Assembly (NCBI GenBank): GCA_015179045.1
Contig: WHUZ01000061.1
Coordinates: forward strand, 186,001-250,000
Origin: Kalaharituber pfeilii
Lineage: Eukaryota; Ascomycota; Pezizomycetes; Pezizales; Pezizaceae
DNA: 64,000 nucleotides
Direction of reading: 5' to 3'
The notes beneath the pieces were generated by a model, which was not told where the DNA came from, did no database searches, and saw nothing but the letters and a program-made list of their open reading frames with translations. The position numbers were made by a program, and so were the translations under genes. Below, one piece after another: positions 2 through 61,622 of the stretch. Each line of letters opens with the position of its first letter. Within the stretch, counting starts at the first letter, position 1.

Positions 2-764
2 ACTACTGTCAATGATGCAGAACTCATTGCCATGAGCGAAGCATTACGCAATCAAGCTGGGGAACTCCTGATCATAACCGACTCTAAGGTATCGATATCC
101 AAGCTCCTAAAGATCGCCCAGGGAGAGCCCACCCACAAAGGACCGGCAAAACTGGTTAGAGACGCCTGGAAAGCGAGAACAGACCGAGGTGACTGGGACG
201 TTGCAGTGATGTGGGTCAAGTCCCATATAGGAGTCTTTTTTTTTTTTTTATTTTTTATTTCACGTGACCCCGCTTGTAGCTGTTCGCCATGGCAGGGCCC
301 CTGGGTCTAGACCCTCAAAGCCCGGAGGCAGGCTTAGCCATATAGGAGTCAAAGGGAACACCGAGGCAGACACAGCTGCGAAAATAGGCACATGCCTCCC
401 CTACCAAGATGAAACCATAACAGAAGATGGGATACGACAAACCTCGAGACATCAGCGCGCCACAGAGAGAAACCGGCTAGGGCTCAGCTACCGTCCCTTG
501 ACAAGACTTGGAAGTCGACACATAGCCACACTAGCAGGAATACTGGGCGGCAAGTTACTACGGAAATGGCAGTACGAAATCGGGAAAGCAGACAGCCCAG
601 AATGTCGATGGTGTGGGGAGGAGGAGGAGACTACTGAACATGTGCTCACTAGGTGCAGGACATGGAAACGAAAGTGGCCAGGAGGCATGCAAGACTTGGT
701 CACTCCTCCGAAGAGCAAGGACACAGACCCACTTAGAGACATCTTGGAGTGGGCAGGGGCATAG
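2..764 (+). pseudogene. LINE-B ORF2 C-terminal end: RNase H and CCHC zinc knuckle, split by an insertion
   Basis: The reading frame shows ribonuclease H signatures: the acidic residues of NDAELIA and LIITDSK, then MWVKSHIGV (to 235), resuming as SHIGVKGNTEADTAA after 338. It ends with the knuckle CRWCGEEEETTEHVLTRC (CX2CX8HX4C), the usual C terminus of fungal RNase H-bearing LINE ORF2 proteins. The RNase H would remove RNA from the RNA:DNA hybrid during target-primed reverse transcription. The frame breaks at 236-337, where a 102-bp insert plus a 13-bp duplication shifts it by one base (115 nt in total). Without the insert the two halves join in frame, so this copy was coding-competent here when it was hit. 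The product is now truncated. Confidence 0.85.
236..337 (-). mobile_element. LINE-A tail retroposon inserted in LINE-B RNase H
   Basis: The insert has a T-run at its left end (poly(A) on the minus strand), then TTTCACGTGACCCCGCTTG... and about 35 bp more of the LINE-A 3' UTR (CCCTGGGTCTAGACCC...). It is flanked by a perfect 13-bp duplication, CCATATAGGAGTC, at 223-235 and 338-350. It is one of the longer tail copies, extending upstream of the usual CCCTGCC start. It shows LINE-A was active after LINE-B had inserted here. Confidence 0.93.
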
Positions 765-2676: not shown

Positions 2677-3310
2677 GGGTATGAGCACTCCCTAGTTCTT
2701 GCAGGTGCAAAGTGTCGTTCTTCTCGTGTAGCTGGCACGTGGGTGGTGGTGGTGCTACCTGCCTTCGTCTGGGATAGTCTAGAGCATTCCCATAGTGCCT
2801 GGAGTTTCCTTTCGCTTAATACTTTGAATTGAGCCCCTCCCCCGCCTTGGCAGGCCTCCCGTTAAATGTGACTATAAAAGCTTGGCAAGGCTTGGAGTAG
2901 CTGCAACCCTAGCTGTGAATTGTGACCGCATGGAATTCAGGAAATGAACGGGGAATCACTTTGCAACCTCCCTGCAGTGTAATCTCGTAACTCTTGGAAA
3001 TGTAGTCATATGAAGTCCATTTCACCAACTTGGAAGTATGATGCAGTATTGTTCCAGTACCCTTTTGGTTGCATATATCTGCACCCAATGAGTGTGATGC
3101 ATTTAGTATGCAATGCTATACACTGCAGCCTTGGCGTCAGAAAGTTCGCATATAGCATAGAAAAGTCATCCTTGTAGGGCAGAATTCCAACTTACGGTGA
3201 GTAAACTTGATGGGACGTATGCGATATAGATAAATATGATAGATTTCCAATACTGCTGGTTCTATACGCAAAGGAGTAGTATGATAGAGGTAAAGATTAT
3301 CATTACAAGA
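2677..3310. other. 5' flank of BTB copy A (duplicated unit), no gene
   Basis: I see no coding sequence. It resembles the 5' flanks of the other BTB copies (GCTTGGCAAGGCTTGG near 2880; TGCACCCAATGAGTGTGATG near 3083), compare 10690-10930, 14590-14720, 18500-18840 and 28030-28430. The promoter of copy A must lie here, but no clear TATA or CAAT element can be assigned. Confidence 0.6.
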
Positions 3311-3368
3311 GCCCTGCCATGGCGAACAGCTACAAGCGGGGTCACGTGAAATAAAAAAGAAAAAAAAA
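3311..3368 (+). mobile_element. LINE-A tail retroposon (58 bp, canonical 5' end)
   Basis: GCCCTGCCATGGCGAACAGC...GGGGTCACGTGAAATAAAAAAG(A)n is flanked by a perfect 12-bp duplication, ATCATTACAAGA, at 3299-3310 and 3369-3380. It starts at the CCCTGCC position shared by most copies. Just downstream (about 3382-3450), CCCTGCCATAAGCTGGGAGC...TACGTGACC followed by A-rich sequence looks like a second, strongly decayed copy. Confidence 0.93.
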
Positions 3369-3380
3369 ATCATTACAAGA

Positions 3381-3887
3381 AATCCCTGCCATAAGCTGGG
3401 AGCCTCTATGCGGCCATACTACGTGACCGAAAAAAGAAAAAAAAACAAAAGAAACATTACATTACAGAAAACTTTCTGCGCCCAAAGGAGCGAATACAGC
3501 ATACATATTTGCAAACTTCGTCCGCACCAATAACACACTGGTTAGATTACATTTATTGAAAACCACTTGTCATATGCATGGCTGTGTACGTCTAAGTGCG
3601 CGGACAACGAAAACCTTACTGCATGAGGATGAAAGGTACTAAGAATATGCGCATTGGATACAGAAATATGATTGCATGAGCGACTGCATGAGGACCTGGA
3701 AGAATGAGGGAAAAGGAAAAGATTGGAGTATATAAGGTGCGGAAATAAGAGCAGATTAAATCGAACATCACTTTCTTCTCATTTACTGTCTCCACTGTGG
3801 GTATTCAATTCAATTCTGGAAGTGCAACTCCCGATGACCGCTCGCAAAACATTATTGTAATCCAGGCCATACAATCAACAATCATAT
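3381..3887. other. Displaced 3' flank of BTB copy B, no gene
   Basis: Segments such as AGCGAATACAGCATACATA, GTTAGATTACATT and GACCGCTCGCAAAACATTA match the 3' flanks of other BTB genes. The copia insertion at 3893-9268 has separated this stretch from the BTB gene whose stop codon is now at 9269. No coding region is visible. Confidence 0.7.
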
Positions 3888-3892
3888 CTATC

Positions 3893-4168
3893 TTTAAGAA
3901 TTACGAGGCTATGTGTGGAGGAATGGTTGCGTTTGCGTGATAAATCAACAGGTAAAATTCAGCGTATATGAAAGCTTGCTAAGTACACGATTTCTAGCTC
4001 TGCTCTGGCGAAAACAATAAACACATAGGAAATTCGTCCCTTATATCCTGCTCCTTTTACCATAAACCGGCCGTTTTGGGACCCTTGTTTCTCCTCTATC
4101 CATAAAGGGGCCGTTTCGGGCTTAGACCATAATAACCCCTACAGCGAGAGTACAACGTGATTCCTACA
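3893..4168 (-). repeat. 3' LTR of copia element 1
   Basis: This 276-bp repeat is identical to 8993-9268. Read on the minus strand it begins TGTAGGAATCAC and ends ...CTTAAA, so the 3' end is not the usual CA. The boundary is set by the CTATC target duplication and by the primer-binding site abutting the other LTR. Confidence 0.93.
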
Positions 4169-4234
4169 GCCTCCCTTACTCGAGCATTTGATCCCACCAG
4201 CCAGCACCTTCATGGGTATCCGAGCCGATACTTC

Positions 4235-6921
4235 TCATCCATTCTTCCCAGTTGATCCCATCCAACAATTCTTCCAATCTTTGATTGTCGACATCGGGGT
4301 GATTTTGGTTAGGATGTCGGCCGGGTTCTCCTTCCCCGGTATCGTAACTATGCGGAGATCCCCATTGTTGACTTCCTCCCTCAGATAATGGAATCGGTGC
4401 TGTATATGGCGGCTCCTTCGGAGATATTTGGCTGTCTTGGATAGGTTCTTTGCCCCCTCCGAGTCGGTTTTCAGGATGGGTGCTGATCTCGGGGTTACCT
4501 TCATCTCCTTGAGTAGTTGCCTGATCCAGGCTGCATCCTTCGCTCCCTCGCAGTCTGCGATGTATTCTGCTTCCGTGATCGAGAGCGCCACTATATCTTG
4601 TCTTCGTGACCACCATCCTATCGGTTGTTTCCCCATCATCATTATAGCTCCGCTTTGTGACCTTGCTCCCTCCCCTCCGTACGAAGCATCCGCGTATATC
4701 TCGACATCTAGGTTTGGTGGTTTTCCTAGGCGGAGTCCTTCTGATCGGGTCGACCATAAATACTGTAAAAGCTTCAAGGCCCCCTTCATGTTCGCTGGTG
4801 AGGGATCCGAGGCCCTTCTCCCCAAGAGGTTGACGTGGATGGATATTTCTGGCCTCGTCATTCGGCATACAAATAGGAGACCCCCCACGATTTGCTGGAA
4901 CTTGGTTTTTTCTGTTCCTTCTTCCTCGGAGGTTTTCGCTTCGTATAGTGATGGCTCGATGGGCATTGAGTGTCGTTCGCCACGCTTGTCGGGGTTCTGG
5001 TGATCTTGGAGATGTTGACGGACTAAATTCTCTATTAAGGCAGTTTGTGTTAGTATCACTTCTTCTTCCTTATCTGAGTTTTTTCGCCATTCCAGTTCGA
5101 TCCCTAGCATTTTCCGAGGTTTTCCTCGCTTATCGATTTCGACTGATTTTGACATGTCTTTCTCGACTTGATCCAGTACTGCCGAAGGTCCTATTCCGAG
5201 CAGATCGTCCACATGCGTCCCAATCAGTCCTTCTCCCACATAACACCCTTCATCGCCTATGCACTGTCTGTATCCGGCATTTTCGAGGATTTTTCGGAGC
5301 TTGATATACCATTCATGCCCTGCCTGTTTGAGTCCATACAGGGCCTTATGGAGTTTCCAGTACTCGATTTCTCCGTCCTCGTTTATGTCTTTGATGTAGA
5401 TGTCGTGCTGGAGTTTGGCTTGAAGGTACGCGGCCACTACGTCCCATTGCCGGATGTCCCATCCCCGGTATAGTGCTATTACTAACAACATTCTCCAGGT
5501 CTCTGGGCGCATCATCTGGGCATAGGTTTCGTCATAATTGACACCGTGAATCTGGGTAAAACCCCGCCCCACCTTCCGAGCCTTGAACTTCTCAATTGTA
5601 CCATCGGGTTTTCGCTTGATCACATATACCCATTTGGTGTCAACGATCTTGGTGCCCTCTGGGATATCTGATTCTCGGATCTTGGTGTATACCCCATACT
5701 TCTGGAGTTGCGACCGTTCTTTTTGTCTTGCCTTACTCCATTCTGAGGCATACTTTCCGGTACGGGCTTGTTGTTCGGTGGGGTGGTCTTCATCTGTGCC
5801 AACTGCTTTTGTTTGTCCGGGTTTTTGAATCTCTGTAATCCAAGTTTTCCGACAAAAATACTCAACAGCTTTATGGCCATCTGTTGGTACAGGTTCGACT
5901 TCTTCAACCGATGCTTCGAAAATGTCTCCTTCTTCAGGTATTGGTGCTGGTTTGTCAAACAACCTCTTCCTTGATGATTTCTGGTTGTCTTTGGCTTTGT
6001 CTGAAGGTCTTCGAGTTCTACTACTTTCCCTACTCCCATGAAGTTCGGTCCATTCCGCAGGTGTCTTGTGGTGGCGCTTTTTCGTAGGTGGTGCTAATGG
6101 TGCCGTATAGTATTGTTCGACCTGTTGAGGAGTTTTTTCTGGGGTTGTGGGTCGTTTACTTTCGGTTTCGAGTTGGAGTTTCGACTGGATTTCTGATTCG
6201 GATTCGGGTCCAGGTTCAGATTCGGTTTCGGATTCGGATTCGGTTTCGGGTTCAACAATTGATACTGGGTTTTTTGCTAATTTTTCTGCCCCCCTCGAGT
6301 CTAAGACTCGATATATTCCATGTGTCTCGGTGTACCCTATTATCCTTCCTTCCCATGATCTTGCCCCTAATTTTCCTGTATGATTGTAGTCATAACAGGT
6401 GACCCTTTCTCCAAACGGTCTCAAGAACTTCCTTTCTTCTACGGGGTTTTTCTTGAGTAGCACTTCTATGGGTGTTTTTCCATTTAGTGCCTTATGGGGG
6501 ATCCGGTTTTTTGTATATGAGCTCCAGCTGCTGGCTTTATCCCATTTGCCTTCTGGAATAGCTGGTGATGTCGCCAGTATTGCGGTTCTGCTCATTGTCA
6601 TGATGGTTCGGTTTGCTCGTTCGGCTATAGCATTTGTCTCGCTATGTCCTGGCACTGTCTCTTTAAGCTTTGTTCCTCGTTTTCGTAGCTTGCTTTCGAG
6701 ATCCTTATTTCTGAATTCTCCTCCCCAATCTGCTTGTATCTCTGCTACCTTCCATCCTTCTCCTGATACTGCTGCTTCCAATGCTTCGATAATTTCCATT
6801 AATGCAGTTTTTGTATCAGATTTTTGTCGGAGTGGTTTGGTGACTGTATATCGGCTATAGTCATCTGTGACTACTAGGAGGTATTCATATTGTTTTCCTG
6901 GCGTTACTGGTTTGACTGTCC
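4235..6921 (-). CDS. Copia polyprotein, integrase core to RNase H
   Basis: The open frame of 854 codons below 6799 extends upstream in the same frame to about 6921 (VVTDDYSRYTV). It contains the integrase core (ADWGGEF aspartate near residue 25, glutamate in NAIAERANR near 60), an acidic Ser/Glu-rich linker (about 183-215), reverse transcriptase (WDVVAAYLQ about 452, YGLKQAGHEWY about 488, catalytic HVDD about 529) and RNase H (YADASYGG, LSITEAEY, then ENPADILTK near the end). This is the normal Ty1/copia order and the frame has no stops. It would copy the element RNA to cDNA and integrate it. It is separated from gag-protease by two frame changes upstream, so expression as one polyprotein is doubtful. 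Confidence 0.92.
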
Positions 6922-8666
6922 TATAAGGTCCGCATGTAGTCGTTCCAGTGGTCTGCTCGTTCGGATTGTTGTTCCGCCTTTCTTTTTTCCTTGATCTTTG
7001 GCAGGTGGCTTTGTTGCTTTGCCTTTCTCACATGCTTCGCACCTAGGGGTTTTTGGAACTTGGGGCATTCTGGGAGATTTTTGAGGGTATTGTAAGAGAT
7101 GTGTCCATACCTTTCATGTAGTTCCTTTGCTAATTCCACATTTGATGCTCGGATTTTTCCTACTTCCTCTGGTCTTATCCACATAGCCCCTCTGTTGTCT
7201 TTGATCATATTGAATATGATTTTCTTCCCCTTTTTTAATACAGCTCTTTCTCCCTTATGTATGACTACATGGTCTCCTTTTATTCTCTGACCGCTCACAA
7301 GATTAGAGTATGCTGGGTCATATAATGCATCGTGGAGGAGGTGGGTGATTCCATTATGCTCAAAAACCAAAGTCCCTTGTTTCTTGCATATAGAGAGAGT
7401 ATTGTCGTGGGCTCGTACTTCGAGATGTGTATCCTTTATGTCTCTTAGTCGCCATAATTCGTTAGTCGTATGGTGGGATGTGCCAGTATCGTATTCGTAG
7501 TAATTTGTCTTAGTGGCTGGATCTGCCATCTTGACTCTGATTGCCCCAATGTGCACTCCCTCGCTATCCGACTCCTCCTCTTTGACCTCGGCTTTAGCTG
7601 CCTTTTTCTCCTCTTTCGCCTTTCCCCAACATTCTGATTCCTCATGGCCGAGTCCTTTCTTCCCGTGTTTTTTGCACCATTCACAGATTTTCTTCTTTCT
7701 CTTCCCTTCATTTCCCTTGAGTACAATCGGGTCATCCTTGGAATTTCCAGTCTGGTTCTTTTTCGATGCCTTTTGCTTAGTAGTGATATATTCCCTGAGC
7801 TTCCTTGTCACATCGTCATATGCGTGATCTTTTGCCCTGATATTTTCGATAGTATTGCTGTAAAAGCTAGGGAATGATCGGAGGAGAAATTCCGTTTTGG
7901 CCTTGTCTGACTCGGAAAATGCCTTAAGCCCCTTCCCAAATCCATCATCACTGCTCAGGTCAGCTCTAGACATGATCCCAGTGAAGGAGTTCCATATGCG
8001 CTCATATTCCGCAATATGTTCTTCGACGCTGGTTTTTCTGTCATCATAGGAAATGTCAAGGCTACTTAGAAGGGAGTAGAATTCAGTTGATGTTTTTCCT
8101 TGGAACGCCTTTTTTAGTTCTTCGTGGACCTTTTTTGCAGTAGTGAGACTCCCTATCCTTGCTCTAACATGGTCTTCACAATTTTTCTTTATGGTTAGAA
8201 TAGCTATAGCATTAGCATCTTTCCATACTCGGGCTGCTTTTTTATCTGCTTTTCCTGATGATGATGATGTGGCCCCTTCAGTTTTGATGGATTCTAGACC
8301 GGTTGGTTGAGCGTAGTCTCCAGTTACTACATCCCATACCCTGTATTCTTCGTTAACTGGAATTAAATCTAAATAATTTTCTATAGAGATAATCCATTCA
8401 GGGTAGGTAGAAGAGCCAGATAACTTGACATCTAGCGTTGGGACTTTTCGGCTGATGGTAGTTTCGGACATCTTTGGTAGATTCGATGGAGGTGGAGGTG
8501 GTTGGGTAGTCTCGTCGGTCGGGGTGTCAACAGGTTCGCTAGTTGTTGTATTGACTGGGAAGCTTCGAGAGAGGATATCTGTGATTTGTTGTTCGGGAGC
8601 AGTTCGATCGATGGGGAGTGGTCGTGGTGTGTTTTCTTCTGGTACTTGATTAGATCCGGACATCAA
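6921..8666 (-). CDS. Copia Gag-protease and start of integrase
   Basis: The frame has 581 codons. The N-terminal Gag part is followed by a zinc-knuckle-like CEWCKKHGKKGLGHEESEC, where spacing departs from CX2CX4HX4C. A retropepsin-like active site follows (YEYDTGTSHH), then the pre-integrase motif ELHERYGHISYNTLKNL with CPKF. After CPKFQKP (near 7050) the expected second CXXC (CEACEKGK) lies in another frame, and near 6925 a second shift leads into the integrase core. The nominal C terminus here is therefore an artefact of the shifts. The start is the first ATG pair after the leader. Confidence 0.85.
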   Translation of the reverse strand: MMSGSNQVPEENTPRPLPIDRTAPEQQITDILSRSFPVNTTTSEPVDTPTDETTQPPPPPSNLPKMSETTISRKVPTLDVKLSGSSTYPEWIISIENYLDLIPVNEEYRVWDVVTGDYAQPTGLESIKTEGATSSSSGKADKKAARVWKDANAIAILTIKKNCEDHVRARIGSLTTAKKVHEELKKAFQGKTSTEFYSLLSSLDISYDDRKTSVEEHIAEYERIWNSFTGIMSRADLSSDDGFGKGLKAFSESDKAKTEFLLRSFPSFYSNTIENIRAKDHAYDDVTRKLREYITTKQKASKKNQTGNSKDDPIVLKGNEGKRKKKICEWCKKHGKKGLGHEESECWGKAKEEKKAAKAEVKEEESDSEGVHIGAIRVKMADPATKTNYYEYDTGTSHHTTNELWRLRDIKDTHLEVRAHDNTLSICKKQGTLVFEHNGITHLLHDALYDPAYSNLVSGQRIKGDHVVIHKGERAVLKKGKKIIFNMIKDNRGAMWIRPEEVGKIRASNVELAKELHERYGHISYNTLKNLPECPKFQKPLGAKHVRKAKQQSHLPKIKEKRKAEQQSERADHWNDYMRTL

Positions 8667-8823
8667 CTGGTTTTAGGTTTCGTGTGTTGCCACTTTAGTT
8701 CGTATAGTTCGGCGGTAAGGGCCCTATCGTGTTGGCCGCTTGGGTTTTTCCCTTTTATTTTTGCTTTTGATCACTCTGCTTGTCTTTGGATAAATTTTGT
8801 CCTTGACTAGCTTGTAATCGGAG

Positions 8824-8901
8824 GTCTGCGGGGTTCCTCAGATATGATCCGAGTCGCAGTGTCGAATGGTATGCTTATTTTGAGTCTGCGGGGTTCCTCA
8901 G
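8824..8901. repeat. Direct repeat in the copia 1 leader
   Basis: The 18-mer GTCTGCGGGGTTCCTCAG occurs at 8824-8841 and again at 8884-8901, each followed by a related segment (GATCCGAGTCGCAG / TGACTGAGTTGCAG). It lies in the untranslated leader between the primer-binding site and gag, where dimerisation or packaging signals would be expected; that role is inference. Confidence 0.7.
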
Positions 8902-8980
8902 TGTGACTGAGTTGCAGCGTTGATTTTTGGCGCAGTCGGTGATCCTTTGGTGTTTTGCTACCCGGCTTCAACGGTGCGCC

Positions 8981-8992
8981 GGGCTCATAACC
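8981..8992 (-). promoter_or_regulatory. Copia 1 primer-binding site (initiator tRNA anticodon-arm type)
   Basis: GGTTATGAGCCC (minus strand) directly abuts the 5' LTR. Its complement GGGCTCATAACC matches the anticodon stem-loop of eukaryotic initiator tRNA-Met (CAT anticodon), not the tRNA 3' end. This is the arrangement known from Drosophila copia, which primes from a half-tRNA. The same 12-mer abuts the LTR of copia 2 at 27685-27696. Confidence 0.8.
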
Positions 8993-9268
8993 TTTAAGAA
9001 TTACGAGGCTATGTGTGGAGGAATGGTTGCGTTTGCGTGATAAATCAACAGGTAAAATTCAGCGTATATGAAAGCTTGCTAAGTACACGATTTCTAGCTC
9101 TGCTCTGGCGAAAACAATAAACACATAGGAAATTCGTCCCTTATATCCTGCTCCTTTTACCATAAACCGGCCGTTTTGGGACCCTTGTTTCTCCTCTATC
9201 CATAAAGGGGCCGTTTCGGGCTTAGACCATAATAACCCCTACAGCGAGAGTACAACGTGATTCCTACA
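8993..9268 (-). repeat. 5' LTR of copia element 1
   Basis: This 276-bp LTR is identical to 3893-4168. It begins (minus strand) immediately after the stop codon of BTB copy B, so the element's 5' LTR now serves as that gene's 3' flank. Confidence 0.93.
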
Positions 9269-10525
9269 CTATCCATTTATAAACTGCATAGGCGCTGTGG
9301 CTCCCGACACCCCACATTTGCGACAATACAACCAATTGTGATGCCCCCATACCCCTGAGTTGAAAGTGTTACTCACCTGGCACCACTTGCACTTGTAGGT
9401 GTATGAAGTCCTCGACCCGGAAACCCTATCTTCTCCCAAAATGCCGAGGGTATTCCCATTGATTTGAATTGAATAGCCAACTTCGTGATCCATCTTACTG
9501 CAGCCAGGACATTTAATGTACATCACGCCCGAGTAGTTACAGCCCGAATTGGTGCAGACGCGGCTAAGCGGATGGGTTTTGTCAACGGAGACTGCACTGA
9601 CATTGACAGTTCCATTACCACCAGTCCCACTTTCGATTATTGCAGAAATCCATGGCGGACTTGCTGCTGACCTGGAATTTGTGACTAACGCCTTTGCAAA
9701 ATCAGGTGAGTGCTCCAGCAGAGAACAAAACTCAGCCTTTGCCCTAAAAACATCCAGGGCCCAAGATGTGTACTGTGCGAAATACTTGAGCAATCGTTCT
9801 GTGGGTGCAGTGATGCTGGAGGATGAGAAGCTCGAGAAGGGGAGATTTCCAAATGCATAGGACACAGCATTCATCACAGCCTCAACATCGTCAGTAGCTG
9901 CAACCATTCCAAGATCTGCAAGCAAGGCTGTAATCTTGTTGTAGGCCAGGTCTTTGAGGGGCACAGTGTTGAAACGATCTGCAAGGACATAAATCTTGGT
10001 GTGCCCCAGTAGTGCTGAGGCGGCTTTCGGATTTTCACTGTGCACATGCCACAACGTCAGTTTCCACATCCTATATTCCACACTGCGGGATCTGCGAACT
10101 GAAACCTACGTGGTGTAGTCATCCTTGTACGCCCACTGCAGGAAAGCTGTCATTGTTGCTCCGTCCACCTCACTCAACTCCATCACACCTTGTGTACCCT
10201 CTTTCATATCATTATTGACGTGTTTATCCAATTCAGCAGAGAGCGATGCCAAGAGTGACCTGTGGACATAGAACACAGCCTGTTCGGGAATACCACCTTC
10301 TGTGTCTGTCGCCTTTGCCGGATTTGTGTTTGTGACCGACATCTTGGCCTCAAGCTTCGATTTAGCGATGACATCTTTGAGAACAATCTTAAAAAAAATC
10401 TGTATGCAGGAACTTAAGGCTAGCAGGATTACTGTTCTCAAGGAGGTTAGTACTTAACCTTCGGAATGTCACCAATCCTGATGTATTCTGATCAGCACTT
10501 ACTGCGTTTGGCTCATCGTCGCCAT
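9269..10525 (-). pseudogene. BTB/POZ-zinc family, copy B (frameshifted)
   Basis: The exon plan matches its relatives: exon 1 10503-10525, intron 10459-10502, exon 2 10110-10458, intron 10038-10109, exon 3 9269-10037. Exon 2 has eight T (minus strand, near 10389-10396) where relatives have ACTTCTTT, a one-base gain that breaks the frame inside HTDFFKIV at the start of the BTB domain. The rest, including HTKIYVLADRF, CPGC, CKWC and CRKC, reads cleanly. Unless this is a sequencing error in a homopolymer, the gene is dead. Its TAG stop lies within the 5-bp target duplication of copia 1, so coding sequence was preserved but the native 3' flank was moved 5.4 kb away. Confidence 0.8.
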
Positions 10526-10757: not shown

Positions 10758-10821
10758 TTTTTTTTTTTTTTTTTTTTTTTGTCACATGACCCCGCATGCG
10801 GCTCTTCGCCATGGCAGGACG
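10758..10821 (-). mobile_element. LINE-A tail retroposon (64 bp)
   Basis: A T-run is followed by GTCACATGACCCCGCATGCGG and CGCCATGGCAGGAC. It is flanked by a 13-bp duplication, CTTTGTATACTGT, at 10745-10757 and 10822-10834. The 5' end lies at the common CCTGCC position. Confidence 0.93.
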
Positions 10822-11145: not shown

Positions 11146-11159
11146 GTGTTTGTACCCAT

Positions 11160-11933
11160 TTTTTTTTTTTTTTTTTTTTTTTTATCACATAACCCCGCTT
11201 GTAGCACGTGGCCATGGCAGGGTCCCTGGGCAAGCCCTCATAGCCCGGAGACAGGCTAAACTAACTCTCTACGTACATGGACCCCACGTGCCGTCGCCCC
11301 CGCTCTCCTAGCTTCTAGAACTTGACCCCGCATTCTCCTACCTTCTAGAACTTGACCCCGGCGAAGAAATTCTCTAAAACGTCATACTCCTCCCCATTCT
11401 CCGCCTTTCTTTTCCAATCCTTTCCCATGTCGCTCCACCTCTCAAAACCTTCTGGGCGGTTCTCCTGACTTCTGCATCGGAAAGCGAGATGCTCCCCCGT
11501 TTGCACCTCCCTACACCTACACCTATCCGATTCCGCCACCCCTAGCTTCTTCAACCACCCAGCACACCTTCCTCGCTCCAGTCGCAATGCAGTGAAGTTT
11601 GATGTCGCCACCCTACTCCACTCCATGACCTTTCCTCCTCCAAAGCCCTCCACTTCTCTCTTCTCCTTCCTCCACGCCTTCACCCTCTGGCGCACCCCAC
11701 TTCCGGTGGCCACCTCCTTCCCCTGCATCACCGTCCCCTTCTTTGCCCACTCATCTGCCTTCTCATTTCCTGCGATTCCGATGTGAGCCTTGACCCACAT
11801 CAGCTTCGCATCTCCTCCCTTCTTCTTCCTCCCTTGCCTGCCTTCTGAATCGCCATGACAGCAGCTTCAGAATCTAAGCAAACCAGGACCGGTACCTCCT
11901 CCGGTACACTCTCCAGCGCACTTCTCACCCCCC
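11160..11933 (-). mobile_element. LINE-A copy, 5'-truncated, with complete tail
   Basis: This minus-strand insert is flanked by a perfect 14-bp duplication, GTGTTTGTACCCAT, at 11146-11159 and 11934-11947. It has a poly(A) at 11160-11182, then the tail TATCACATAACCCCGCTTG...GGCCATGGCAGGG, a roughly 100-bp 3' UTR, and the end of an ORF2. The tail is the same sequence that forms the many 35-120 bp inserts, so this copy identifies their parent family as a LINE. Confidence 0.93.
11345..11933 (-). pseudogene. LINE-A ORF2 C-terminal fragment: RNase H and zinc knuckle
   Basis: The fragment reads VLVCLDSEAAVMAIQ (RNase H aspartate), then LMWVKAHIGIAGNEKADEWAKKG, and ends with a CRCREVQTGEHLAFRC knuckle and FAGVKF before the stop at 11345. 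A one-base frame change occurs within the GGR/KKK stretch at about 11830, so the two parts are in different frames. The 5' end is cut by truncation at 11933. Its RNase H differs clearly from LINE-B, so two LINE lineages coexist. Confidence 0.85.
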
Positions 11934-12194: not shown

Positions 12195-13026
12195 AGCGGT
12201 GGTCATCAATTATGGTTGGGGACATGTGTACGCATATCTACAGTAAAGTAAATGGAACATTTGTAGCCGCGTCTTGGCAACAATGCCCATTGGCTATGTT
12301 CCGCCCTCAAATGTAAGGTAAGGTACGGAGTACACTATCACAGTACATTCTGAAAAATCTACAGCACGAAATAGTCCCGTTACTTTTGGAAAAACATTGA
12401 CTTTACTTTAGATTTGCTACGAACCGCCCCCACTCAACGCAAGCCCACACCACACCGCACCGCACCACACCAAAAGGAGGCTCTTTGCATCCAAAAAATA
12501 GCAGGAAATGCTGGATCTGGATATTAATTAATCAATTTTGATAGAATATTTAAGTCTTGCCTTCTAGCAGTGTTTTTGCCATGGTTGAGATATCGATTAG
12601 CTGCAATATGATCACTCCTATCTACTAGCCCCTGAAGCTCCTCTAAGTCCTCCTCTTCTTTCTCTGAACTGTACTCTGAGTCAAACCCCAAATCTAAATC
12701 ATACTCCATTGTTGTCATCAAAACATCGATTTCAGCATCTATTTTCTTCTGTATTGACGCTTTTCAGCTTATACGAGGCATTGCGAATCTGTAGTTGTGT
12801 TGATATGCAGGGTAGGGGTGAATGAGACTACAATTACAGAGTACAAGCCTTAGCTTTTTTGCATTTTGGACCGGTCATCAATTGCCGGCTAGACGTACAG
12901 GGATATGAACGAATGTTCCATTTACTTTACTGTAGATAATTGATGACCACCGCTGCCCTGCCATGGCGAACAGCCGCATGCGGGGTCACGTGACAAAAAA
13001 AAAAAAAAAAAAAAAAGACCACCGCT
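12195..13026. mobile_element. Non-autonomous inverted-repeat DNA transposon with nested LINE-A tail
   Basis: The left end AGCGGTGGTCATCAATTAT (12195-12213) is repeated inverted at the right end (ATAATTGATGACCACCGCT, about 12936-12954). The match extends inwards over CTACAGTAAAGTAAATGG, after a 22-bp interruption on the left. Flanks are CAGT on the left and AGTG on the right. Related BTB flanks (for example 28445) read GCGAATACAGTGTAAGCAC without an insert, giving a 3-bp duplication (AGT, or TAG with shifted ends). No full transposase is present. A small frame at 12524-12721 (minus; acidic, ending LNILSKLIN) may be a remnant. A PIF/Harbinger origin is possible because of the 3-bp duplication, but unproven. 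Confidence 0.75.
12955..13016 (+). mobile_element. LINE-A tail retroposon (62 bp) nested in inverted-repeat element
   Basis: GCCCTGCCATGGCGAACAGC...GGGGTCACGTGAC(A)n is flanked by a 10-bp duplication, GACCACCGCT, at 12945-12954 and 13017-13026. It has the canonical 5' end. It sits within the right inverted repeat, so it is younger than that element. Confidence 0.93.
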
Positions 13027-13176: not shown

Positions 13177-14433
13177 TCAATTTTGGATCTTCAGCTTACT
13201 TCCCGACGCCCCACATTTTCGACAACACATGAATTCGTGTGCATATGGAACTTTGTAAGGCATACTGTTTGTGCACCACTTGCATTTGTATGTGAAGTTG
13301 GCCTTGGTTCCGGAAACCCTATCTTTTCCCAAAATTCCTAAGGTGCTTTCATTGGTTTGGATTGAACAACCAATGTTACGATCATACCTGTAGCAACTAT
13401 CGCACCTGATATCCGTTACGCCTGCATAGTTACAGCCCGAAGCGGTGCAGAGACGGCTAAGAATATGAGTTTTGTCATCGTCACGAGTTGATTCGATGCT
13501 GACGGTTCCGTTACGGCCATCCCCAGTTTCAACTATTGTAAAACTCCATGGCGGTGTTGCAGCTGATCTAGAGTTTGTGACTAAGGCTTTTGCGAAATCA
13601 GATGAGTGCTCCAGCAGAGAACAGAACTCAGTCTTTGCCCTAAAAACATCTAGAGCCCAAGATGTATACTGTGCAAAATACTTGAGCAATCGTTCTGTGG
13701 GTGCTGCGATGCAGGAGGATGAGAAGCTTGAGAAGGGGAGATTGCCAAAAGCATAGGAGATAGCTGTCATCACAGCCTCAACATCATCGGCAGCCGCAAC
13801 CATTCCAAGATCTGCAAGCAAGGCTGTAATATTATTGTAGGCTAGGTCTTTGAGCGGCACAGTATTGAACCGATCCGCAAAGACATAAATCTTTGTGTGT
13901 CCTAATAATGCTGAGGCCGCTTTCGGATTTTCACTGTGCACATGCGCAACGTCAGTTTCCACATCCTATATTCCACATTGCCTTGCCGGATCTGTGAACA
14001 GCAACCTACATGGTGTAGTCATCCTTGTACGCCCACTGCAGGAAAGCTGTCATTGTTGCTTCATCCACCTCACTCAACTCCATCACACCTTGTATACCCT
14101 CTCTCATATCATTGTTGACATGTTTGTCTAATTCAGCAGAGAGCGATGTCAACAGTGATCTGTGCGCATAGAATACAGCCTCATCGGGAATACCGCCTTC
14201 TGTGTCTGTCGGCTTTGTCTGATTTGGGTCCGGGGGAGATGTCTTGGCCTCCAACTTCGATCTGGCGACAACATCTTTCAGAACAATCTTAAAGAAGTCT
14301 GTATGCAGGAACTTGACGCTAGCAGGATTACTGTTCTCAGGAATGTTAGTACTTGACCTTGGTAAAATTGCCATTCCTGCTGTATTGCAATCAGCACTAC
14401 CAGCACTTACTGCGTTTGGCTCTTCGTCGCCAT
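13177..14433 (-). CDS. BTB/POZ protein with C-terminal cysteine-rich module, copy C
   Basis: Exons are 14411-14433, 14010-14357 and 13177-13933; introns are 14358-14410 and 13934-14009. Joined length is 1128 nt (375 aa) with no stops. The BTB fold spans roughly residues 20-122 (HTDFFKIVLKD; FYAHRSLLTSLSAELDKH; GVMELSEVDEATMTAFLQWAY). HTKIYVFADRF follows at about 135. The C-terminal cysteine region has CTASGC, CDSC, CKWC and CRKC, ending SKLKIQN. It probably acts as a protein-interaction adaptor; partner and target are unknown. The start is the ATGGCGACGAAG conserved in the family, though the frame of exon 2 also opens further upstream. Confidence 0.85.
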
Positions 14434-15986: not shown

Positions 15987-16042
15987 CCCTGCCTTGGCGA
16001 ACAGCTGCATGCGGGGTCACGTGAAATAAAAAAAAATAAAAA
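15987..16042 (+). mobile_element. LINE-A tail retroposon (56 bp)
   Basis: CCCTGCCTTGGCGAACAGC...GGGGTCACGTGAAAT and an A-rich tail are flanked by a 14-bp duplication, ATGGTAGTCAAATG, at 15973-15986 and 16043-16056. It has the canonical 5' end. Confidence 0.93.
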
Positions 16043-16258: not shown

Positions 16259-16298
16259 CCCTGCCATGGCGAACAGCTGCAAGCGGGGTTATGTGAAA

Positions 16299-16322
<24 letters not shown>
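16259..16322 (+). mobile_element. LINE-A tail retroposon (64 bp)
   Basis: CCCTGCCATGGCGAACAGC...GGGGTTATGTGAAAT(A)n is flanked by a 14-bp duplication, AGCAGTCATATGCA, at 16245-16258 and 16323-16336. It has the canonical 5' end. Confidence 0.93.
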
Positions 16323-16489: not shown

Positions 16490-16524
16490 CCCTGCAAGCG
16501 GTGTTATGTGATAACATAAAAAAT
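16490..16524 (+). mobile_element. Old, very short LINE-A tail retroposon (35 bp)
   Basis: CCCTGCAAGCGGTGTTATGTG followed by ATAACATAAAAAAT lies between ACATGATGTGGTG (16477-16489) and ACATGTTGTGGTG (16525-16537), a 13-bp duplication with one mismatch. The core lacks the internal ATGGCGAACAGCTA segment, so it is a deleted or diverged copy. Confidence 0.65.
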
Positions 16525-17044: not shown

Positions 17045-18280
17045 TCAATTTTCGATCTGCGTATAACCTACATATCCACATTTTCGGCAATAGATGTAGC
17101 TGGTATAAACATATGACCCTGAACCTGCGTAAGTAGTACTCACCTGGCACCACTTGCATTTGTATGTGAAGGAGGTCTTAGTTCCGGAAATCCTCTCCTC
17201 TCCCAAAATGCCAAGAGTGCTCCCATTGACTTGCACCGAATAACCAATCTCACGATCATACCTACCGCAAGGTGGGCACAGGATGTCCATCACACCCGAG
17301 TAGTTACAATAGGTGCAGCGGCGGCTAAGAATATGGGTTTTGTCATCAATGCAAGTCGATTTAATGCTGAAAGTTCCCTTACTGCCACCCCCAGCTTCGA
17401 TGATTGTAGAAATCCACGGTGGTGTTGCAGCGGACCTAGAGTTTGTGACTAAGGCTTTTGCGAAATCAGATGAGTGCTCCAGCAGAGAACAAAACTCAGG
17501 CTTTGCCCTAAAAACATCCAGAGCCCAAGATGTATACTGTGCAAAATACTTGAGCAATCGTTCGGTGGGTGCAGTGATGCTGGAGGATGAGAAGCTCGAG
17601 AAGGGAAGATTGCCAAATGCATAGGAGACTGCAGTCATCACAGCCTCAACATCATCAGTAGCTGCAACCATGCCGAGATCTGCAAGCAAGGCTGTGATCT
17701 TATTGTAGGACAGGTCCTTGAGAGGCACAGTGTTGAAGCGATCTGCAAGGACGTAAATCTTTGTGTGCGCAAGTAATGCAGAGGCAGCTTTTGGATTGTC
17801 ACTGTACGCCACATTGTCAGTCCCCATTCCAGATTGCGGGACCTGTGAATATCATAAAAACTTACGTAGTGTATTCATCCTTGTACGCCCACTGCAGGAA
17901 AGCCGTCATTGTCGCTTCATCCACCTCGCTCAACTCCATCACCCCTTGTGTACCCTCTCTCATCTCATTATTGACATGTTTATCCAATTCAGCCGAGAGC
18001 GATGCCAACAGTGACTTGTGCACGTAGAACACAGCCTGGCGAGGAATCCCACCTTCCGCGACCATCGACTTTGACTGATTTACGTTCGTGGCCGGCGTCC
18101 CGGCCCCCAAGTTCGATCGGGCGACATCCTTCAGAACGATCTTGAAGAAGTCTGTGTGCAGGAAGTCAAGGGTGGCAGGATCACTGTTCTCAGATTGCTT
18201 AGTGCTTGCTCTGAACAAAATTTCCATTCTTCATCCAATGCCACCACTAGAACTTACTGCTTTTGGCTGTTCGTCGCCAT
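17045..18280 (-). CDS. BTB/POZ protein with C-terminal cysteine-rich module, copy D
   Basis: Exons are 18258-18280, 17866-18210 and 17045-17801; introns are 18211-18257 and 17802-17865 (GTAAGT...TACAG). Joined length is 1125 nt (374 aa), uninterrupted. The BTB core reads HTDFFKIVLKD, FYVHKSLLASLSAELDKH, GVMELSEVDEATMTAFLQWAY. HTKIYVLADRF and a helical region with YTSWALDVFR follow. The C-terminal cysteines are CTYC, CPPC, CKWC and CRKC, forming neat CX2C pairs that favour two zinc-ribbon-like sites. Exon 1 encodes MATNSQK, as in copy E. Confidence 0.85.
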
Positions 18281-19862: not shown

Positions 19863-20192
19863 ATGTTTGGTGGTGCTCAGGCTATTCTGTAAAGAATTGC
19901 ACTGTCATATTGAAGCATACATCTTTGCTTATGCATATGTACAGCAATTCTGGGCTGCTATACAGCATAAAAGCATTGTCTGAAGAATCTCTGAGGCGAT
20001 AAAATAGAAACACATATATAATAAGGTACTTGCTGAACTGCTTGCAGTACTAGCTGAACCATAAAATACAGTACATCATTTAAGGCCCTTTTGATAACGG
20101 CAGCATTGCTGCCAAGAGGCTACATATTCTCTGGCTGCGCTACCATATGCAAACCAATGATCCCTGCTTCTCCAAGCCTGTTTCGGCACTTA

Positions 20193-21152
20193 CCAGTACC
20201 GTATGGGTAACGATGTGCACACCGGTAACGCTGGGCACTTTGGCGCCGGTTTTGCACCCTTCCCAACATCACAATGTCAGGCATATCTCACAGAATATAT
20301 TTCCAATATGTATAATGAATTAATTATAGACCATATTGACTGCGCTGATTCTGAATTTGAAGGGAAAAAAGTGAAAATGCTACTCCTGCAGCATCTACAG
20401 TTGCCACACCCCTCTACCTTATGAAATAACCTCCTCTAGTACGTAGTAGCAAATACTAACTCACCGTAACACTCTACCTGCCCATGGAATAGGAGGAATA
20501 GTAGCAATGGTACTACCAGTGCTATATTACAATACATGAGTAGTACCAGCTTGAGATCTGTACCATAGCACTGTATGCTCCTGTAGCAAGAAATTGTGCA
20601 TAACTAAGAAATTGAGCATTTTCCGGATGCGACAACAAAAAATTCCTGTGAGTGCAAATAGCTCTCAAGGGGGCTCAAATTGAAGCCAGAGCATGGTACA
20701 ATACATGGAATTATCTTTCGCATATTCATTGAGCCAATTTTTAGGAGATGGGTAGTGACCTATTTGGTATATTCCAAATCCTATACTAGACATACTCTGA
20801 GCTGCCAAGTGTTAATGATCCTGCCTAAGATCAATAAGATCTAGACATATACTCTATTACCTATTCTGAGGAAGCGTAGCTAGTTTGGTCGTGTTTGGCC
20901 ATGTCATGGGGTTATCATGGCTATAGAGTAAGCAGTCTACCTATGTTAGATAGGTATGCTATAGTACCATGACTAGTTTTCAGCTACCCAAAACTATTAC
21001 TCCATACTACCAGCTGTTATAAAATATCTTCTTCTATATGTCTCTATATTTGTACCTTTAGGGAGTATCTATGCATCAGTTGTACTCTATAACAGTGCAG
21101 TACTAATATGTACCTGCATAACCAACAATATACTATTGATATGACAGCCCCA

Positions 21153-21187
<35 letters not shown>

Positions 21188-22118
21188 CACGTGACCCCGC
21201 TTGTAGCTGTTCGCCATGGCAGGGCAGCCCCACTCTAGATATTAATCTAGATACCTATAGTTTGTGCCGGTTTCGAGACTGTGTACAACTCGTATAGTGC
21301 TACATGACAATGATGATGCAATTATTACTGTTGCATACTGTATGTGTGTGATGCTGCATATCTGACATATCTAACATATGTGGGCTGCTCACTCTATGGT
21401 TATGGCGACTCCTTGACATTGTTAGACTTGCTATACTTCCTCAGAATAGGTAATAGAGTATATGTCTAGATCTTATTGATCTCAGGCAGGATCATTAACA
21501 CTTGGCAGCTCAGAGTATGTCTAGTATAGGATTTGGGATATACCAAATAGGTCACTACCCATCTCCTAAAAATTGGCTCAATGAATATGCGAAAGATAAT
21601 TCCATGTATTCTACCATACTCTGGCTTTAATTTGAGCCCCCTTGAGAGCTATTTGCACTCACAGGAATTTTTTGTTATCGCATCCGGAAAATGCTCAATT
21701 TCTTAGTTATGCACAATTTCTTGCTACAGGAGCATACAGTGCTATGGTACAGATCTCAAGCTGTTACTACTCATGTATTGTAATATAGCACTGGTAGTAC
21801 CATTGCTACCATTCCTACTATTGCATGAGCAGGTAGAGCGTTGCAATGAGTTAGTATTTGCTGGTAGGTACCAGAGGAGGTTATTTTATAAGGTAGAGGG
21901 ATGTTGGCAACTGTAGTTGCTGTAGGAGTAGCGTTTTCACTTTTTTCCCTTCAAATTCAGAATCAGCGCAGTCAATATGGTCTATAATTAATTCATCATA
22001 CATATTAGAAATATATTCTGTGAGATATGCCTGACATTTTGATGTTGGGGAGGGTGCAAAACCGGCGCCAAGGTGCCCAGCGTTACCGGTGTGCACATCG
22101 TTACCCATACGGTACTGG
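20193..22118. mobile_element. Foldback-like DNA transposon with about 690-bp inverted arms
   Basis: The left arm (20193-20882) and right arm (about 21427-22118) are inverted copies at roughly 90-95% identity by eye. Termini are CCAGTACCGTATGGGTAACG and its inverse, flanked by TA on both sides. The related locus at 33868-33892 (TTTCGGCACCTATTCGTTGC) appears to be the empty site: left flank TTTCGGCACTTA and right flank TATATTTCGTTGC join there. The 540-bp spacer has no transposase. Small frames of about 70-100 codons in the arms (20203-20424; 21881-22183 minus) are copies of each other and probably not genes. Confidence 0.8.
21157..21224 (-). mobile_element. LINE-A tail retroposon (68 bp) in the foldback spacer
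   Basis: A T-run is followed by TTTCACGTGACCCCGCTTGT and GTTCGCCATGGCAGGG. It is flanked by a 12-bp duplication, CAGCCCCACTCT, at 21145-21156 and 21225-21236. It has the canonical 5' end. Confidence 0.93.
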
Positions 22119-22120
22119 TA

Positions 22121-26737: not shown

Positions 26738-26800
26738 TTTTTTTTTTTTTTTTTTTTTTTAATCACATAACCCCGCTTGTAGCACTTGGCCATGGCAGGG
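26738..26800 (-). mobile_element. LINE-A tail retroposon (63 bp) inside copia 2 gag
   Basis: A T-run is followed by AATCACATAACCCCGCTTGT and GGCCATGGCAGGG. It is flanked by a 15-bp duplication, TGCATTGCGTGGGTT, at 26723-26737 and 26801-26815. Its tail variant (CACATAACCC, CACTTGGCC) is closest to the LINE-A copy at 11160. Confidence 0.93.
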
Positions 26801-28586: not shown

Positions 28587-29838
28587 TCAATTTTGGATCT
28601 GCAGATTACTTCCCGACGCCCCACATTTTCGACAATACATGAATTCGTGTGCATATGGAACTTTGCAAGTCCTGCTGCTTGTGCACCACTTGCATTTGTA
28701 TGTGAAGGAGTCCTTGGTTCCGGAAACCCTATCTTTTCCCAAAATTCCTAAGGTGCTTTCATTGAATTGGATTGAACAACCAATGTTACGATCATACCTA
28801 TTGCACGCACCGCACCTTATGTGTCCGTTACGCCCACGTAGTTACAGCCGGAAGCGGTGCAGAGACGGCTAAGAATATGAGTTTTGTCATCTTCACAAGT
28901 CGATTCGAAGCTGACGGTTCCCTTACGGCCATCCCCAGTTTCAACTATTGTAGAACTCCATGGCGGTGTTGCAGCTGACCTAGAGTTTGTGACTAAGGAT
29001 TTTGCAAAATCGGGTGAGCTCTCAAGCAAGCTACAAAACTCTGGATTTGTTCTAAAAACATCAAGGGCCCAAGCTGTGTACTGGGCAAAATACTTGAGTA
29101 GCTTTTCTGTTGGTGTGGAGATGCTGGATGACGAGGCGGTTGAGAAGGGAAGATTGCAAAATGCAAAAGAGACTGCTGCCATCACAGCCGCAACATCATC
29201 AGTAGCTGCAACCATTCCAAGATCTGCAAGGAGGGTGGTGATCTTATTGTAGGCTACGTCTTTGAGAGGCACGATGTTGAAACGATCTGCAAGGACATAA
29301 ATCTTTGTGTGCCTCAGTAACGCTGAACTGGCTTCGGGATTTTCACTGTATGCATGCCATGTTGTCAGTTTACACCCCCTGTAACTGCCCATATAATGGG
29401 TTCTGTCAATAGAAACCTACATAATATAGTCATCCTTGTATGCCCACTGCAGGAGAGCCCTCATGGTCAGCTCGTCCACCTCACTCAACTCCATCACACC
29501 CTGTGTACCCTCCTTCATATCGTTGTTGACATGCTTATCCAGTTCAGCAGAAAGTGATGCCAATAGGGACCTGTGCACATAGAACACAGCTCGGCGGGGG
29601 ATACCGCCTTCAGTACCCGTTAGCCTGGACAGATTTGTATTCGCGGTTGTGTTGCCATCCAACTCCGATCGAGCTACATCCTTCAGGATGATCTTGAAGA
29701 AGTCTGTGTTCAGGAAGTCAAGACTGGTAGGATCACTGTTCTCAAATTACTTAGTACCTGCCCTGAAGAAAATTTCAACTCCCCATTGATTGCGTGCAGC
29801 ACCACTAGCACTTACTGCTTTTGGCTGTTCGTCGCCAT
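28587..29838 (-). pseudogene. BTB/POZ-zinc family, copy E (nonsense and frameshift)
   Basis: The layout follows the family: exon 1 29816-29838, intron 29763-29815, exon 2 29421-29762, intron 29346-29420, exon 3 28587-29345. In exon 2 a TAA (29747-29749) stands where copy D has CAA (ACTAAGCAATCTGAG versus ACTAAGTAATTTGAG). In exon 3 an indel near 28815-28825 shifts the frame after GVTDT; relatives continue IRC. Beyond it the other frame restores CKWC and CRKC and the usual stop at 28587. The CAA-to-TAA change is a C-to-T at CpA, the context favoured by repeat-induced point mutation in ascomycetes, though one site proves nothing. Confidence 0.8.
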
Positions 29839-40445: not shown

Positions 40446-42257
40446 GTATTTTACTAGCTAGTACATAACCCCGATCGTAGAGTGAATACATTGTTCCATG
40501 TCTGGCTTAGGTTAGCGTACTGTGACTTGGTAGCGAAGGATGCAGCACTAGTGATGCACCGTGTTATCAGAATGCATTCATCAAGGAGTGCCACATGAAC
40601 GAAGGAACGGGGTCCATTGAGAGAGAGCGCATTGTCTAATCCATCTGTGTTTCTGTTGACTACTGTAATTCTCATCGATTTGGAAACAGCATGCAATTGA
40701 ATCAAGTCAGTTTCTACCCTTTGTGACTATCCTTCCAACATACATGTGTATGACAGATCCCCTACTAAACAGTCAGTGCCACAGCGCATAGCTGGGCGAA
40801 CAAGCTGGGAAACGAAGCACCTGCATTGGTTACAGTACATGGCGTCTGGAGCGATTTGTATGTACCAGTTGCGACAGCAGAAATGGACAGCACACCCTAA
40901 TAATAACTCGGGCACATTGCAGATATATGAGATCTCAGTGCTCAATCAACCATTGTATTGAGTCTTTGCTCGGTACTGGCATTTAGTGATGTAGGTGGGG
41001 CTGTTATGGCCGTGCGAGAAAAGCCTACCGGATCGGGGATAGATATTGCTACTCACAGGTATTGTCCATACAATTTTGCTCCCATACAGACCTCAGCCTC
41101 ACCTGCTCACAGACCACCTGCATCACTAAATGCTGGTAAGGAGAACAATAATGTCGATCTGATCAGGCAAGGCTGGCGTTACACGGGCATGAAGCCTGCC
41201 ACTGCGCCGACTACTGGTCAATGTGATGTCTTGAAGAAGTCATGGGTTGACCCTCGTACGATCTGTCTTGCAGATGCGGGACACAGCATGCTAAGGAAAT
41301 GCGGCCGCTATGTAAAAGGAAAGCCAAGGCACTCAGAGCAACCAACGTTGCATTGAGATTATCAGAACATGTAAGCGGCTGGCTATGTCTCAGGGAAGCT
41401 TGGCACAAGTGCTTCTTTTTCTTTTTTTCTTTTTTTCTCACGTGACCCCGCGCGCAGTTGTTCGCCAAGGCAGGGCGGCACAAGTGCTTCAATGACTAGG
41501 GACTCTACGCTCAAGGGGCAGAAGAACTGTTCGCTTTCATCTGATTTGTCGAATTCACACTAATTGCCATGCATACATACCTTGAACGATCAAAGAGACA
41601 TTTGTATTCCAAACTTGAGCGCGTGGATCCAAGCACCTGCACTCGTGACGTTGACATGAGGCTCAAACTTGATAGCTGTAGCCCTGTTGTTGCATATAAC
41701 CATGAATGGTAAGCACGTCTCGGTCCGAGGTAATCAGTTACCTGTCTGCAACCTTTCAAGATCCGGACAAGTTCCCCTGCATGAAACCCTCACGGTAAGC
41801 AAGTTCCCCATCAACAGTGAATGTAGAATGTCAAATTTTTGGGCGACTAACAAATGACCTAAAAAAATTGAATAGTCATTAACTGTTGAGTTTTGGGTAG
41901 AAAGAGATGATTGTTATTCCTTCGTAGAGAGAGTAGCCAAAGTAATACACCTATATACATAGAGCATGAGGTTGCTCTCGGGCCCTTACCACCCTTTATC
42001 ACGGACCTCTCTGATATCCGACACCTCCGACACTCCGACATTACTGTAGATCTCTAACATTAACCACGTGAGTAAGTCCAGTGACGCCACAGAAGCGGTG
42101 TATTCCAAGTTGGGCTTGAAAGGATCAGCCTTTCACGGTAGATTATCCACCCCAACTTGGACTAGTTTGACGAGTATCAATGACCCCAAAAGGTTGCCCA
42201 CGACTATAATTTAGAAGGGGACACAAAACACCACAGACCACCTTGGAAGTAGGTGCC
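40446..42257. other. Long intergenic stretch with one LINE-A tail
   Basis: The largest open frame (40958-41356, plus) shows no domain and no fungal intron pattern, so I do not call it. A LINE-A tail lies at 41416-41476. CCAAGTTGGG (42109) and CCCCAACTTGG (42152) form a small inverted repeat near the next gene. Confidence 0.5.
41416..41476 (-). mobile_element. LINE-A tail retroposon (61 bp)
   Basis: A T-rich tract interrupted by C is followed by CTCACGTGACCCCGCGCGC and GTTCGCCAAGGCAGGGC. It is flanked by a 14-bp duplication, GGCACAAGTGCTTC, at 41402-41415 and 41477-41490. Confidence 0.93.
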
Positions 42258-43804: not shown

Positions 43805-43897
43805 CCTCCGGGCTTTGAGGGGTCAGACCCAGGGGCCCTGCCATGGCGAACAGCTACAAGCGGGGTCACGTGATAAAAAAAAAAAAAAAAAAAAAAA
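43805..43897 (+). mobile_element. LINE-A tail retroposon (93 bp) in a coding exon
   Basis: CCTCCGGGCTTTGAGGGG...GGCCCTGCCATGGCGAACAGC...GGGGTCACGTGAT(A)n is flanked by a 13-bp duplication, GAGGTTTATTGCC, at 43792-43804 and 43898-43910. It includes about 40 bp of LINE-A 3' UTR upstream of the usual start, like the copy at 236-337. Insert plus duplication is 106 nt, which shifts the host frame. Confidence 0.95.

Positions 43898-61590: not shown

Positions 61591-61622
<32 letters not shown>

Follow-up and report, generated by a model that had tools for sequence, protein, structure and literature searches.

Minimal LINE-A tail inserts in Kalaharituber pfeilii with 5′ ends at the feet of predicted RNA hairpins

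Introduction

The 5′ truncation of LINEs is commonly attributed to the enzyme falling off its template (PMC2104539). In stringent-type LINEs such as UnaL2 and ZfL2, a 3′ stem-loop is the recognition signal (PMC4176376, PMC3747384), and stringent-type LINE proteins bind 3′ stem-loops (PMC4176376). Among short elements, Mg-SINE and a LINE have a common 3′ end (PMC2104539), and Platy-1 is a SINE of ~100 bp (PMC10378772). The MGL MINE chimeras of Magnaporthe consist of two or three RNAs fused at 28 sites and include 230–5461 nt of LINE (PMC2104539). The reverse transcriptase (RT) of R2 adds up to three untemplated nucleotides after finishing its template (PMC8857657) and intrinsically favours purines (PMC11789487); stable folds at the template 5′ end raise R2 insertion, in which the authors see a hint that insertion is limited by 5′ degradation (PMC11331408).

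Here, inserts consisting of the 3′ tail of a LINE, LINE-A, are described in a 64-kb stretch of the K. pfeilii genome (the window; contig WHUZ01000061.1, positions 186,001–250,000) and in the genome as a whole.

LINE-A Tails in the Window

The window contains 16 LINE-A tails, and these are dense there compared with just two in twenty 10-kb stretches taken on two contigs. The original prediction had listed eleven inserts comprising only the LINE-A tail and poly(A), flanked by direct repeats and starting at a shared CCCTGCC; all eleven are real, and 11 of the 16 tails have this start. Ten of the listed inserts were called with duplications of 10–15 bp (scores 9.0–12.5). The remaining one, at 53384–53428 on the minus strand, carries a 13-bp GATGCTGCTTYCG repeat with one mismatch and was missed by the automatic duplication filter because its very short A tail falls below what the filter needs.

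On the plus strand, the insert at 3311–3368, composed of a predicted hairpin (HP1, below) and an A tail, is exact, with ATCATTACAAGA flanks at 3299–3310 and 3369–3380. Those at 12955–13016 and 61545–61617 start at G (in the former, the G of GCCCTGCC), those at 15987–16042 and 30885–30943 have a G before CCC that is common to the target, and in that at 16259–16322 the base shared with the target before CCC is an A. On the minus strand, the insert at 41416–41476 starts at G, that at 10758–10821 has one additional C ahead of the G, and at 21157–21224 the G is common to the target. The insert at 26738–26800, also on the minus strand, belongs to a diverged LINE-A subfamily (GGCCAAGTGC core) and shares the A before CCC with its target.

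Five further tails start elsewhere. A longer insert at 236–337 (minus strand) starts at the foot of a second predicted hairpin, HP2 (C+TAAGCC), and one at 43805–43897 (plus strand) starts within the HP2 loop. Two copies, at 16490 and 58633, start inside the core, the duplication score of the latter being just 7.0. The fifth, at 11158–11344 on the minus strand, is the 3′ UTR of a long LINE-A copy with HP2, HP1b, HP1, and A tail, for which a duplication was not called; it adjoins a C-terminal ORF piece of the same copy (11345–11800, minus strand) whose RNase H match lies below the curated cut-off. LINE pieces in the window include RNase H matches (one above and one below the curated cut-off) and a zf-RVT match (below cut-off).

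The copy at 16490–16522 has a 15-bp duplication with one mismatch. In it, CCCTGC abuts AAGCGG and the hairpin apex is absent; the missing part may lie between two CTGC words, which would resemble slippage of the RT across the hairpin. The insert at 21157–21224 sits in the spacer of a large inverted repeat (20191–20884 and 21426–22120) with arms 95–96% alike. Three bases past the 3′ duplication of the 3311 copy lies what is probably the tail of another LINE family (3384–3460, CCCTGCCATAAGCTGGGAGCC...), with related tails in copies L018, L170, and L007.

The window also holds a Copia element at 3892–9277, apparently recent, with 286-bp end repeats 99% alike and long open frames with RVT_2. A dispersed family of cysteine-rich proteins is encoded in open frames of 191–270 aa on the minus strand (1439–2221, 9269–10081, 13177–13962, 17045–17827, 28817–29392, and 60094–60894). 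The one member scanned has no Pfam matches, and all seven of its hits are from K. pfeilii: one partial protein is 99% identical over 49% of the query, and the others are 45–71% identical.

Genome-Wide Distribution of 5′ Ends

The genome (78 Mb, 360 contigs) was searched with AGCTRCAWGCGGGGTYAYGTGA, the 3′ half of the core. This pattern starts 17 nt inside the core and is therefore blind to the 5′ end; it cannot catch copies shorter than itself. It has 1700 exact matches, long LINE copies included, and its reversed control has none. The first 100 of the 1700 (contigs C1–C7) were read with flanks by a script that compares the flank after the A tail with any upstream point and calls a duplication at a score of at least 8. 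Among these 100, duplications were called in 54 true pairs versus 1 of 100 swapped-flank pairs. In these inserts, the A tail runs directly into the 3′ duplication, as it does in products of LINE machinery.

Of the 54 starts called in this sample of 100 from 1700 matches, 50 lie within 10 nt, at −14 to −23 relative to AGCTRCAWGCGGGGTYAYGTGA, and 4 at −53 to −55. The modal start, in 19 copies, is −17, the G of GCCCTGCC; the second cluster corresponds to AAGCCTGCC, ~37 nt upstream of the main start. None of the 54 falls between the clusters, where ~29 positions are available (p 2e-5 under uniform truncation), and the probability that uniform truncation would bring 50 of the 54 into a given 10-nt interval is ~1e-55. 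Random 5′ truncation, already disfavoured in the original prediction, is thus rejected for this sample: rather than the smooth spread of 5′ ends of an ordinarily truncated LINE, LINE-A has two clusters plus longer copies.

The 100 copies divide into 64 minimal, 4 of the longer class, and 32 long, the minimal class being assigned by exclusion and including 14 without a called duplication. Sixty of the 64 are clean; the others are L035 and L036 (nested), L068, and L128. The genome probably contains about a thousand minimal insertions. Among the first 20 previously unread entries in the list of LINE-joined copies, eight duplications were called (swapped controls 0/60), six at the HP2 foot and two longer. 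Of the six HP2-foot starts, two have an A or two in common with the target. A long T run precedes AAGCC in one, and TA or TC precedes it in the others. The second 5′ end is not absolute, because the window copy at 43805 starts in the HP2 loop.

Individual copies vary at this end. L183, an HP2-start copy, has at least 15 T between the target duplication and AAGCC, resembling a long untemplated dA run on cDNA. By eye, L171, from a U-type LINE, has an HP2-class start, GTGCCTG, after ACCAGCAGAAAGC. Eight of the loci with a doubled CCCTGCCCTGCC were read: at L002, L005, and L007, targets ending in CCCT or CCCTG lie ahead of the insert; true extra bases are present at L004 (TG) and L006 (CCCTG); and the other loci are ambiguous or nested.

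Predicted Hairpins of the LINE-A Tail

The minimal insert is 39 nt long (G to GTGA), followed by an A-rich tail, and the HP2 class is 76 nt (AAGCC to GTGA). The LINE-A tail runs from the predicted hairpins HP2, HP1b, and HP1, in that order, through GUCACGUGA to poly(A). The predicted pairings are AAGCCUG/CGGGCUU for HP2, four pairs for HP1b, and GGCCCUGC/GCGGGGUC plus an inner four-pair stem for HP1, with predicted stabilities of −7.8, −3.4, and −17.3 kcal/mol, respectively. The HP1 stem has eight pairs, and the main start, the G of GCCC, is its second base. Both start points lie at the 5′ foot of a hairpin, HP1 and HP2 being the most stable of those predicted for the tail. None of the starts called lies at the weak HP1b. 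The original prediction had noted the palindromes GCCATGGC and CACGTG in the core; the end is marked not by these but by the stem CCCUGC/GCGGGG.

Pairing was assessed in a 30-row alignment, from which L003, L035, L036, and L093 had been dropped for indels. In it, 92.9% of cells are paired, and 22 cells are changed on both sides with pairing kept, a count that 0 of 500 shuffles attain. The covariation score of these 30 rows is matched by none of 500 shuffles, and offset partners drop pairing to 28–51%. Two of five covariation measures are no better than shuffles (pairs changed on both sides, 280/500; further pair types, 498/500). The outer two HP2 pairs are broken in 19 and 20 of the 30 sequences, mostly U-type, and individual folds exceed shuffled sequence in stability by a modest margin at most (z −0.4 to −2.1). 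On these predictions, LINE-A has the conserved 3′ hairpin that is a trait of stringent-type LINEs.

Comparison with LINE-B

LINE-B is likewise A-tailed with a 3′ hairpin and has 1521 matches to its own pattern. In 40 of these 1521 copies, 13 duplications were called (swapped controls 1/120), of which L144 was dropped as a poly(A) artefact, leaving 12 usable. Within this sample of 40, starts range from −2 to −145, with three of the 12 at the hairpin foot. The predicted LINE-B hairpin (−10.3 kcal/mol) is more stable than HP2, yet foot starts are few. LINE-B thus largely behaves as ordinary truncation, with foot starts favoured much less than in LINE-A, and because its starts scatter, the method does detect ordinary truncation. 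Starting at a hairpin foot is perhaps general, and may be weaker in LINE-B. In the window, two of three called LINE-B copies (47878–47935 and 54909–54963) start two bases before their own hairpin foot.

Junction Bases and the Origin of the 5′ End

The 50 minimal copies for which a duplication was called comprise 19 that start at G, 19 in which one or more extra bases lie ahead of the G, 8 that start at CCC, and 4 that start inside. The extra bases are 19 T, 11 C, 2 G, and 2 A (30 pyrimidines versus 4 purines), and the nearest extra base is a pyrimidine in 18 of 19 (p 8e-5); the duplications are balanced in composition (A 182, G 158, T 155, and C 151). Pyrimidine additions on the insert strand correspond to mostly purines on the cDNA. 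Since these match the additions made by R2 RT at template ends, they point to an RT that copies as far as the physical end of the RNA.

Two other sources of the junction bases were considered and rejected. Microhomology-driven joining is disfavoured by the sharing of the G with the target in 10 of the 50 minimal copies, near the quarter expected by chance; in three of those 10, the sharing covers the G plus one or two C. A cap-derived G was rejected as a general cause only, with the TTAYG copies described below outside that rejection: the G is templated in G-type LINEs, pyrimidines predominate among the further additions, and no extra G is seen in the HP2 class.

The reading preferred here, at a probability of roughly 0.6, is that minimal inserts are reverse transcripts, made by LINE-A enzymes, of tail fragments whose RNA 5′ end already lay at the hairpin foot. 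It draws on the observed fixed starts, duplications, and pyrimidine additions, and on hairpins that are predicted with covariation. LINE RNA would be cut or trimmed from the 5′ side to the foot of HP1, leaving seven of eight pairs, or less often to that of HP2, which lies 76 nt ahead of the tail. The RNA end would precede reverse transcription and might be made by 5′-to-3′ decay halted by the stem or by bound enzyme, or by an endonuclease. RNase P-like or Xrn1-like cutting could each fit a seven- or eight-pair stem. By analogy with stringent-type LINEs, the hairpin would keep the template-recognition features that the LINE enzyme needs, and the trimmed fragment could still serve target-primed reverse transcription. 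The enzyme would copy to the physical end of the fragment, often adding one to few purines to the cDNA, which would then be joined to the target with a duplication of 10–16 bp. It is by extension to LINE-A that stem-loop binding and the hint of 5′ decay in R2 enter this scheme.

Several points stand against the tail-fragment reading: the LINE-B hairpin, more stable than HP2, has few foot starts; repair enzymes could also make untemplated additions; the TTAYG minimal copies carry G where most of their long copies carry A, and lack extra bases; and the two covariation measures no better than shuffles, the broken outer HP2 pairs, and the modest stability of individual folds weigh against the hairpins.

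The original prediction had offered either a discrete tiny RNA or an RT stop at a fixed structure, and the former fits better. Under the latter, the RT would start on full-length RNA and stop or release at a fixed structure, such that the DNA end reflects enzyme behaviour. The ends are indeed located at structured places, and the MGL LINE of Magnaporthe switches templates at preferred sites with the consensus GCC*A/U (PMC2104539). The LINE-A start, however, does not match GCC*A/U. A halt is moreover expected at the 3′ foot of a hairpin, whereas here the most stable hairpin has been copied through and the end lies at its 5′ foot. HP1b ends four nt further upstream, and none of the copies read (100 of 1700 matches) has the AGGG start that a halt there would leave. 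With purine addition on the cDNA also indicating run-off, an RT stop is unlikely.

LINE-A Subfamilies and the SINE Alternative

A 39-nt SINE, with its own transcription start and amplified in trans, is the other source that might be proposed, and the original prediction had spoken of a possible SINE-like family. Minimal inserts are indeed short, repeated, and non-autonomous, with an A-rich tail, target duplications, and one fixed 5′ end. They also outnumber LINE-joined copies. The core GCCCTGCCATGGCGAACAGCT has 1321 exact genome matches, 137 of them with exact CCAGGG directly ahead, and ACCCTGCCATGGCGAACAGCT has 343, of which 223 have it, both counts leaving out LINE copies with other letters at the CCAGGG position; as GCCCTGCCATGGCGAACAGCT is rarely preceded by CCAGGG, G-type cores are mostly minimal. 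The presence of G before CCC in 59 of the 64 minimal copies, across core types, would likewise suit a single lineage, as might the CACGTG of TCACG-type cores, which end in GTCACGTGA. CACGTG is the E-box, a bHLH site.

Of the internal Pol III promoter (tRNA, 5S, or 7SL) of a SINE, simple regular expressions found neither an A box nor a B box in one representative core. There is no consistent extra G as from a cap, the extra bases being mostly pyrimidines, and a second discrete class exists at HP2. Core variants are common to minimal and LINE copies, and minimal copies are present in several LINE subfamilies. Of the 128 copies of the ACAA-TCATG subtype, 22 carry GGGG and are therefore LINE-joined, and the diverged GGCCAMGTGC subfamily is represented both by a minimal copy (window 26738) and by a long LINE copy, L169. 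Because the variants track the LINEs, this sharing favours repeated origin from LINE RNA over an independent SINE lineage, and from the sequences compared, minimal copies look more like by-products of LINE RNA. A separate SINE therefore seems improbable.

L169, a long copy of the LINE-A group whose tail is a diverged form of the insert core, encodes CCHC knuckles in a 991-aa ORF1. Its ORF2, of 1220 aa, contains endonuclease, RT, and RNase H domains that all score above cut-off. This ORF layout is Tad-like.

The TTAYG core departs from its LINEs at one base: minimal copies carry G before CCC, whereas 24 of 27 long copies carry A. By eye, the G is not common to the target in the minimal copies L029, L031, L045, L047, L097, and L100. 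Extra bases occur in none of the nine TTAYG minimal copies with a called duplication versus 19 of 41 others. This G could come from a minority G-carrying LINE (L059 and L064), from cleavage that requires it, from an addition resembling a cap, or from a lineage distinct from the LINEs.

A DNA-stage origin, with the hairpin of a long cDNA as the site either of a cut or of priming for the second strand, would accommodate both classes starting at hairpin feet, given that the cDNA could by its sequence fold into an equivalent hairpin, but is very improbable, since the additions resemble RT tailing of the cDNA 3′ end, which cutting would remove.

Implications and Comparison with Known Systems

If tail fragments are the templates, LINE-A 5′ ends seem to be set nearly to the base by RNA structure, and the state of the RNA, not processivity alone, would decide insertion. 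Each insert records a template end together with untemplated additions, and about a thousand copies constitute a natural experiment on LINE template ends; the inserts also give a natural estimate of the smallest template that LINE machinery mobilises. TCACG-type copies could, in addition, scatter bHLH sites across the genome.

A more tentative idea is that the bare 39-nt hairpin with its A tail might itself be a mobile element, which halts RNA decay at its own foot and signals to the LINE enzyme, such that any carrier transcript could be trimmed and reinserted. If true, LINE enzymes would in effect record the intermediates of RNA decay, and the hairpin element would be, to our knowledge, the smallest retroposon. 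No report of a hairpin-only retroposon with a fixed 5′ end was found in the open-access literature, Repbase being outside the scope of that search.

As in UnaL2 and ZfL2, the LINE-A hairpin lies near the 3′ repeat or A tail and is kept as a structure; whereas the hairpin is known there as a recognition signal, in LINE-A it also occurs by itself as an abundant insert whose 5′ end is fixed, and its recognition role is ascribed here by analogy. The inserts resemble Mg-SINE and Platy-1 in being short and non-autonomous, and share a LINE 3′ end as Mg-SINE does. They differ from both in that neither a head nor a Pol III promoter was found in them, and in having a 39-nt core and variants shared with LINEs. 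Untemplated additions at the cDNA end are a feature in common with R2 (PMC8857657, PMC11789487). At the 5′ end of full-length R2 there is a ribozyme fold of the HDV-like kind; for the LINE-A copy L169, no match to any Rfam family reaches the gathering threshold. With MGL, LINE-A has in common that it is a fungal LINE with preferred sites on the LINE RNA, while no second RNA is joined to LINE-A inserts, in contrast to the MINEs. Among the systems compared, the nearest precedent is the site-preferred template switching by MGL (PMC2104539).
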